Source of the DNA: an uncultured PS1 clade bacterium
Lineage (GTDB): Bacteria; Pseudomonadota; Alphaproteobacteria; MED-G09
Assembly (NCBI GenBank): GCA_902626605.1
Contig: CACOFZ010000004.1
Location: 16,446-80,445 of the forward strand
Reading direction: 5' to 3'
Length of the DNA: 64,000 nucleotides
Shown here: in pieces, positions 55,647 to 57,241 of the stretch
Position numbering within the stretch: position 1 is the first letter of the stretch
Layout: every line of letters starts with the position of its first letter
Program-made: the position numbers and the translations under genes
Notes under the pieces: generated by a model
Told to the model about the DNA's origin: nothing
What the model saw: only the letters and a program-made list of their open reading frames with translations
Databases searched by the model: none

Positions 55647-55659
55647 AGAGTTAACCCCA

Positions 55660-55678
55660 ATATCCACATTTATCCACA
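55660..55678 (+). promoter_or_regulatory. Two tandem DnaA-box-like 9-mers upstream of dnaB
   Basis: ATATCCACA (55660-55668) and TTATCCACA (55670-55678), same orientation, 10-bp period; the second is an exact consensus match. Confidence 0.65.
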
Positions 55679-55723
55679 AATAATTTTCTTTTTTTATTAT
55701 CTTTATAGTTATAGATTGTTTTT

Positions 55724-57241
55724 ATGGAACAATCATCTCCCATACCTTTAAATCAAGATCAAAAAAATCTTAATAATATTGAGTTACCCCATAATTTAGA
55801 GGCTGAGCAACAATTATTAGGTGCTTTAATAAAAAACAATGAATTAATTGATAGAGTTTCCCAAAATGGTCTTAAAGGTATTCATTTTTTTGAGCCATTT
55901 CATGAAGAAATTTATGAAAAAATTACACAAATGAATAATAATGGTAAATCTGTAACCATATTATTTTTAAAAACCCTATTTGAGTCTAATGAAAATTTTG
56001 ATTCTGATAGTTACTTTATAAATCTTGTTGCAAATGCTGCTCATAGTCTGGTTATAAAAGAAGTAGCGGATGAAATTTATGAACTTTCACTTAGACGACA
56101 ATTAATTGATACAGCTGAGTTTTTGGAATATTCATCATATGCATTAAGTGAAGATAAAAGTGTTTCAGAAATAATAGAAAATACTGAAATAAAATTATAT
56201 GAAATAGATCAAAAAGGTGAAACAGGAAAAAGTTTCTTCACTTTTGAAGATTCAATTGCTGAGTCTCTTTTAGCAGCTGAAGCTGCATATTCTTCTGATG
56301 ATGGTTTAGCTGGTTTGGCAACCGGCTTTGTAGATCTTGATAAAGCACTTGGTGGATTGCAAAATTCAGATTTAATAATTTTAGCAGGTAGGCCATCAAT
56401 GGGGAAAACAGCTTTAGCATCAAATATAGCATTTAATGTTGCCAAATCCTTTGGTGACCAAATGAATGAAAATAACTTAAATCAGTTGAATGATGAGGAA
56501 TATAAACCTGGTGCAGTTGCCTTCTTTTCCTTAGAAATGTCCGCTGAACAACTTAGTACAAGAATAATATCTGATCAATCTGGAGTATCTTCTAGTAACG
56601 TTAGAAAAGGAAAAATTGATGAGAGAGAAATTAGTAATTATATTAATGTTGCAAATGAACTAAAAAATATACCTCTATATATTGATGAAACTGGAGCTAT
56701 TCCCATAGGAATTTTATCATCAAGAGCTCGACGCTTATCAAGAACTTTAAAGCAAAAAAATCAAGAATTATCACTCATTGTTGTTGACTATCTTCAATTA
56801 GCCACAACAGGTTCTGATAAGTACAGAGGTAATGTAGTTCAAGAAATATCTCAGATTACTCAAGGATTAAAAGCTCTAGCAAAAGAATTAAATGTTCCTG
56901 TAATTGCTTTATCCCAATTATCAAGAAATGTTGAAAATCGCGATAATAAAAAACCACAACTAGCTGATTTAAGAGACTCTGGAGCTATCGAGCAAGATGC
57001 AGATATAGTTATGTTTGTTTATAGAGAAGAATACTATCTGAGAAGAGAGGAGCCAGACGCAGGTACTGAACAGCATATTGATTGGCAAAATAAAATGGAA
57101 GCTGCACATGGTAAAGCATCTGTTTTAATTGAGAAACATAGACATGGAGCTGTTAAAACTGTTGATATGCAATTTACTGAGGAATTTACAAGATTTTCTG
57201 ATCTTGCGAGAGATCAGTACCTACCTGAAAGAATGGATTAA
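55724..57241 (+). CDS. dnaB: Replicative DNA helicase DnaB
   Basis: LPHNLEAEQQLLGALI, LAGRPSMGKTALASNIA, SLEMSAEQL. Confidence 0.98.
   Translation: MEQSSPIPLNQDQKNLNNIELPHNLEAEQQLLGALIKNNELIDRVSQNGLKGIHFFEPFHEEIYEKITQMNNNGKSVTILFLKTLFESNENFDSDSYFINLVANAAHSLVIKEVADEIYELSLRRQLIDTAEFLEYSSYALSEDKSVSEIIENTEIKLYEIDQKGETGKSFFTFEDSIAESLLAAEAAYSSDDGLAGLATGFVDLDKALGGLQNSDLIILAGRPSMGKTALASNIAFNVAKSFGDQMNENNLNQLNDEEYKPGAVAFFSLEMSAEQLSTRIISDQSGVSSSNVRKGKIDEREISNYINVANELKNIPLYIDETGAIPIGILSSRARRLSRTLKQKNQELSLIVVDYLQLATTGSDKYRGNVVQEISQITQGLKALAKELNVPVIALSQLSRNVENRDNKKPQLADLRDSGAIEQDADIVMFVYREEYYLRREEPDAGTEQHIDWQNKMEAAHGKASVLIEKHRHGAVKTVDMQFTEEFTRFSDLARDQYLPERMD

Follow-up and report, generated by a model that had tools for sequence, protein, structure and literature searches.

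The 28-bp block at positions 55651-55678, just upstream of the gene for the replicative helicase DnaB, probably belongs to the dnaB promoter and serves as a control site through which DnaA adjusts dnaB transcription. Judging from its sequence and its relatives, the block probably ties the supply of helicase to replication initiation, and is not a second replication origin. The block is kept throughout the family, DnaA boxes are much commoner than expected upstream of dnaB across the Alphaproteobacteria, and the motif of the block recurs at chromosomal origin regions.

The rplI-dnaB gap and its conserved block

The window (the whole 64,000-nucleotide stretch of DNA that was analysed) is part of contig 4 of a 1.29 Mb genome that is 93% complete. 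Among named genomes, its closest relatives are those of marine Alphaproteobacteria labelled OCS116 cluster or 'Rhodobiaceae'. Here dnaB (55724-57241, forward strand, ATG at 55724) encodes a protein of 505 aa and lies downstream of rplI (ribosomal protein L9; 54966-55646, forward strand), which precedes dnaB in all 15 family loci. The gap between the genes contains three elements on the forward strand, the direction of dnaB. Element A (TTAACCCCA, 55651-55659) is the OCS116-family form of a class-wide TTATCCCC(G/A). Element B (ATATCCACA, 55660-55668) is a degenerate DnaA box, whose register in the class motif reads NTTTTCACA, and element C (TTATCCACA, 55670-55678) is a perfect one. When a DnaA box is defined as a 9-mer matching TTATNCACA, element C is exact and element B has one mismatch; element A and the class core TTATCCCC deviate from the consensus. 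Elements A and B abut (0 bp between them), and boxes B and C start 10 bp apart with 1 bp between. The 45-bp AT-rich tract at 55679-55723, which reaches the dnaB start and is probably the dnaB promoter/leader, contains a conserved TTTTCTT-like stretch and is about 11% G+C by direct count (genome, about 30%). The tandem same-strand boxes, their 10-bp spacing, and the AT-rich tract before dnaB, all described in the earlier note, are exactly in place; that note overlooked the third conserved element, TTAACCCC, 5' of the two boxes.

A scan for the sigma-70 consensus before dnaB performed no better than on shuffled sequences and gave no convincing promoter; the sole promoter-like match overlaps box C. 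An Rfam search returned no credible RNA family, and a candidate hairpin (TTATC-CACA-GATAA) was rejected, as neither the window nor the second genus keeps it intact.

The family set comprises 15 genomes from 3 genera, the window's own included, with DnaB identities of 54-100%. The block is kept in 15/15 of these as TTAACCCC(A/G)ATATYCACAnTTATCCACA, although 8 of the 15 are close kin from the window's own genus, so that the between-genera comparison is the informative one. The footprint can be extended by one 3' base, to TTAACCCC(A/G)ATATYCACAnTTATCCACAG, and ends about 45 bp before the dnaB start. Within the block 21 of 28 columns are invariant among the 15 genomes; the corresponding figures are 13 of 45 for the downstream flank and 7 of 47 for the upstream one. 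The best-conserved part is TTAACCCC (55651-55658), with 8/8 bases invariant. Box C is exact in 14 of the 15 and reads TAATCCACA in the fifteenth; at the position of element B most relatives have ATATTCACA. Thus, the footprinting of rplI-dnaB gaps proposed in the earlier note finds the block in every family genome.

As isolated 9-mers, DnaA boxes are unexceptional, since their numbers are close to or slightly below expectation: the window has 17 matches at ≤1 mismatch versus 20.9 expected from shuffles, and the genome has 12 exact copies of TTATCCACA, about what its composition predicts, most of them inside genes. The excess over chance is the conservation at the dnaB position, not the number of boxes.

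A class-wide motif common to dnaB and origin regions

Enrichment extends well beyond the family. A sample of 66 non-family Alphaproteobacteria was drawn evenly across the class, with a mild leaning towards close or small genomes. Within 250 bp upstream of dnaB these contain 12 exact boxes in 10 genomes. Chance would give 0.08 by 300 permuted motifs or 0.125 by dinucleotide shuffles, an enrichment of about 100-fold. At ≤1 mismatch there are 38 boxes versus about 3 expected; 30 of the 38 share the orientation of dnaB, and the majority are found 50-150 bp ahead of its start. De novo expectation maximization (EM) on the 66 upstream sequences, with the OCS116 family excluded, recovers the motif agTTATCCCCgttnTTCACA in about 63% of them. 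Its log-likelihood of 212, versus 55-64 for five shuffled sets, gives an indicative margin, as the control used single-base shuffles and fewer restarts, and a single motif width was tried. The OCS116 block, TTAACCCC(A/G)ATATTCACA, corresponds to this de novo motif in identical register. About one third of the class sample has no recognisable copy of the motif before dnaB, and E. coli K-12, the outgroup compared, has no comparable element upstream of its dnaB. An exact-pattern search for ATATTCACANTTATCCACAG in 385 class genomes was discarded; the matches were mostly rpoD coding sequence for VDKFEY.

A sequence-only model, R1, was made from 20 dnaB sites and searched over 142 whole genomes. R1 matches fall immediately ahead of dnaB in most of the genomes that supplied training sites, which is inevitable, and likewise in six that supplied none (G060, G064, G067, G076, G136, and G143). 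The matches are weak, with E values reaching 1 per genome, and many of the remaining ones are unrelated. When 30 matches were made into loci, 15 were dnaB and about 8 were origin-region loci never shown to the model. The latter include hemE with or without COG1806 (L180, L190, L197, L201, L205), rho-maf (L188, L204), and a further locus (L181) that has a trio-like run. The established origin of Alphaproteobacteria is COG1806-hemE (PMC1914354). Because R1 matches occur at hemE/COG1806 and rho-maf origin-region loci, the motif can be linked to DnaA, and the element before dnaB resembles a DnaA box pair of the origin type that is situated at a promoter.

These results raise the prospect of an ancestral, class-wide DnaA-recognition module, common to the dnaB promoter and the chromosomal origin, in which TTATCCCC(G/A) and NTTTTCACA keep a fixed 9-bp register, with TTATCCCC as a second, non-canonical class of DnaA site. 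We consider this a serious possibility, somewhat short of an even chance. TTATCCCC, which matches the canonical box poorly, could be a counterpart of weak DnaA sites such as those described at the Caulobacter origin (PMC4468827).

Some matches lie elsewhere. The second R1 match in the window's own genome (TTATCCCCATTATCCACA, G000:C8:643-667, minus strand, L174) sits between divergent genes, one encoding a secreted-type protein of 177 aa and the other a protein of 181 aa. At G000:C11:22008 (L177) an exact TTATCCACAG lies about 45 bp upstream of uvrC, in uvrC orientation; uvrC is possibly another DnaA-controlled gene. In an unrelated alphaproteobacterium, an R1-like motif, TTATCCCCGTTATACACA, is found directly upstream of a dnaQ-like gene (L206, 1490-1550); dnaQ, too, is listed in the DnaA regulon of Caulobacter (PMC8203912).

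The origin question and other explanations

The earlier note had also suggested a small origin or unwinding element, in which DnaA would open the AT-rich tract beside the boxes. The boxes do adjoin such a tract, and their motif is common to hemE/COG1806 origin regions; however, AT-richness is usual at this genome's base composition, and the other marks of an origin lie elsewhere. In the relative G009 (97% complete, 10 contigs), with dnaB at 53 kb of contig G009:C6, GC skew averages positive to either side of dnaB, and its one lasting change of sign is near 290 kb. Of the box scan and GC skew recommended in the earlier note, the skew of this relative placed the switch away from dnaB, and the scan gave the chance-level genome count above. 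Origins are expected to contain a cluster of about four or more boxes (PMC1914354), and the rplI-dnaB gap of the window has 2 at ≤1 mismatch. This gap also contains no trio-like run of the DnaA-trio/BUS kind. Such runs are present in 2 of 81 dnaB upstream regions, but in the five class-level origin-type loci L180, L181, L190, L197, and L201 among those inspected (L205 has none), and 3 of the 5 rho-ppsR gaps of the family have them as well. Neither origin marker, hemE or COG1806, is adjacent to dnaB, which adjoins rplI; in G009 both ppsR/COG1806 and hemE are on contigs other than that of dnaB. A miniature or accessory origin at dnaB, acting through unwinding, is therefore very unlikely.

A separate candidate exists. 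Going by the marker genes, the rho-ppsR(COG1806) gap on another contig is likely the chromosomal origin, and is a better candidate than the dnaB site. In three genomes of one genus this gap contains a trio-like AGTAGTATTAGTTGTTG or ATTAGTAGTAG; in the second genus the strict trio pattern has no match there, and ATAGTAGATGTGGTAG is present with boxes nearby. Scattered boxes occur in the rho-ppsR gap upstream of ppsR at L267, L268, L269, L272, and L273. Clustering of boxes at ≤1 mismatch picked out no origin in G009, whereas the marker genes did. In the OCS116 lineage hemE is separated from COG1806, and the hemE neighbourhood was rejected as the OCS116 origin, with a hemB-like gene directly upstream of hemE. 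In the window's genome the contig bearing ppsR starts 86 bp upstream of that gene (G000:C7:1-86, L271); the assembly appears to break at the presumed origin.

Three further explanations concern what reads the block, or whether anything does. Another regulator might do so, for example CtrA through TTAACC, the likeness to DnaA boxes being coincidental. The TTAACCCC sequence resembles a CtrA half-site, and element A is the best-conserved part of the block in the family. Yet the class consensus is TTATCCCC, not TTAACC, no TTAA-N7-TTAA is present, and no CtrA-like protein was found among the part of the genome's OmpR-type regulator set that was examined. The roughly 100-fold enrichment of exact DnaA boxes before dnaB also argues against this explanation, and we regard it as improbable. 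Several adjacent boxes that lack an unwinding element could instead be a site for DnaA titration or nucleotide exchange (datA/DARS-like), located before dnaB by accident. E. coli datA and DARS require more boxes and IHF sites. Moreover, the block keeps a distance of about 54 bp from the dnaB start in 15/15 family genomes, and box orientation is biased with dnaB across the class, leaving an accidental location a decidedly small probability. As for two 9-mers falling together by chance in an AT-rich gap, single boxes are indeed not over-represented in the window or the genome; the footprint already contradicts chance, as does the class-wide enrichment, and this explanation has almost no weight.

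Predicted regulation and relation to known systems

For the preferred reading, a DnaA-responsive dnaB promoter, the arrangement of the elements suggests how control might work. DnaA would bind strongly to the perfect box C and cooperatively occupy the weaker boxes B and A, which lie on nearly the same helical face. Bound DnaA would then modulate dnaB transcription, with activation more likely than repression, and helicase supply would thereby track both the level of DnaA and replication initiation. Two facts favour activation: across the class the boxes are mostly well ahead of the start codon, and the Caulobacter DnaA regulon is reported to include dnaB (PMC8203912). The promoter-like match that overlaps box C would suit repression.

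The closest parallel is Caulobacter crescentus, a member of the same class, in which boxes are predicted before the same gene and dnaB, as part of the DnaA regulon, has DnaA-dependent expression (Hottes et al. 2005, reviewed in PMC8203912, the source of the Caulobacter boxes considered here). In contrast, the present block comes from an uncultured, streamlined OCS116 lineage and has three elements with one perfect TTATCCACA. The block also resembles the E. coli double DnaA box of purH, polA, and DARS2 in that a weak box is followed at close spacing by a perfect box on the same strand; however, E. coli DnaA prefers pairs 2-3 bp apart (PMC11317965), and the spacer at dnaB is 1 bp. With the alphaproteobacterial oriC (hemE/COG1806, PMC1914354) the dnaB element has in common the TTATCCCC(G/A)-NTATTCACAG box pair, but it differs in its neighbours and in having no DnaA-trio-like run, box cluster, or skew extremum.

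DnaA control of dnaB, as the earlier note proposed, thus gains comparative support from the family footprint, the class enrichment, and the de novo motif, together with the Caulobacter report. Such control through upstream boxes is already reported for Caulobacter; the sole new part is possibly the class-wide composite motif common to oriC, of which a literature search, with many subscription-journal papers outside its scope, found no description. The results suggest that the replicative helicase has long been under DnaA control in the Alphaproteobacteria and still is in streamlined marine lineages; the footprint provides a concrete, origin-shared motif that can be tested in culturable species. 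If the common recognition module is real, the DnaA assembly that fires the origin would also set helicase expression.
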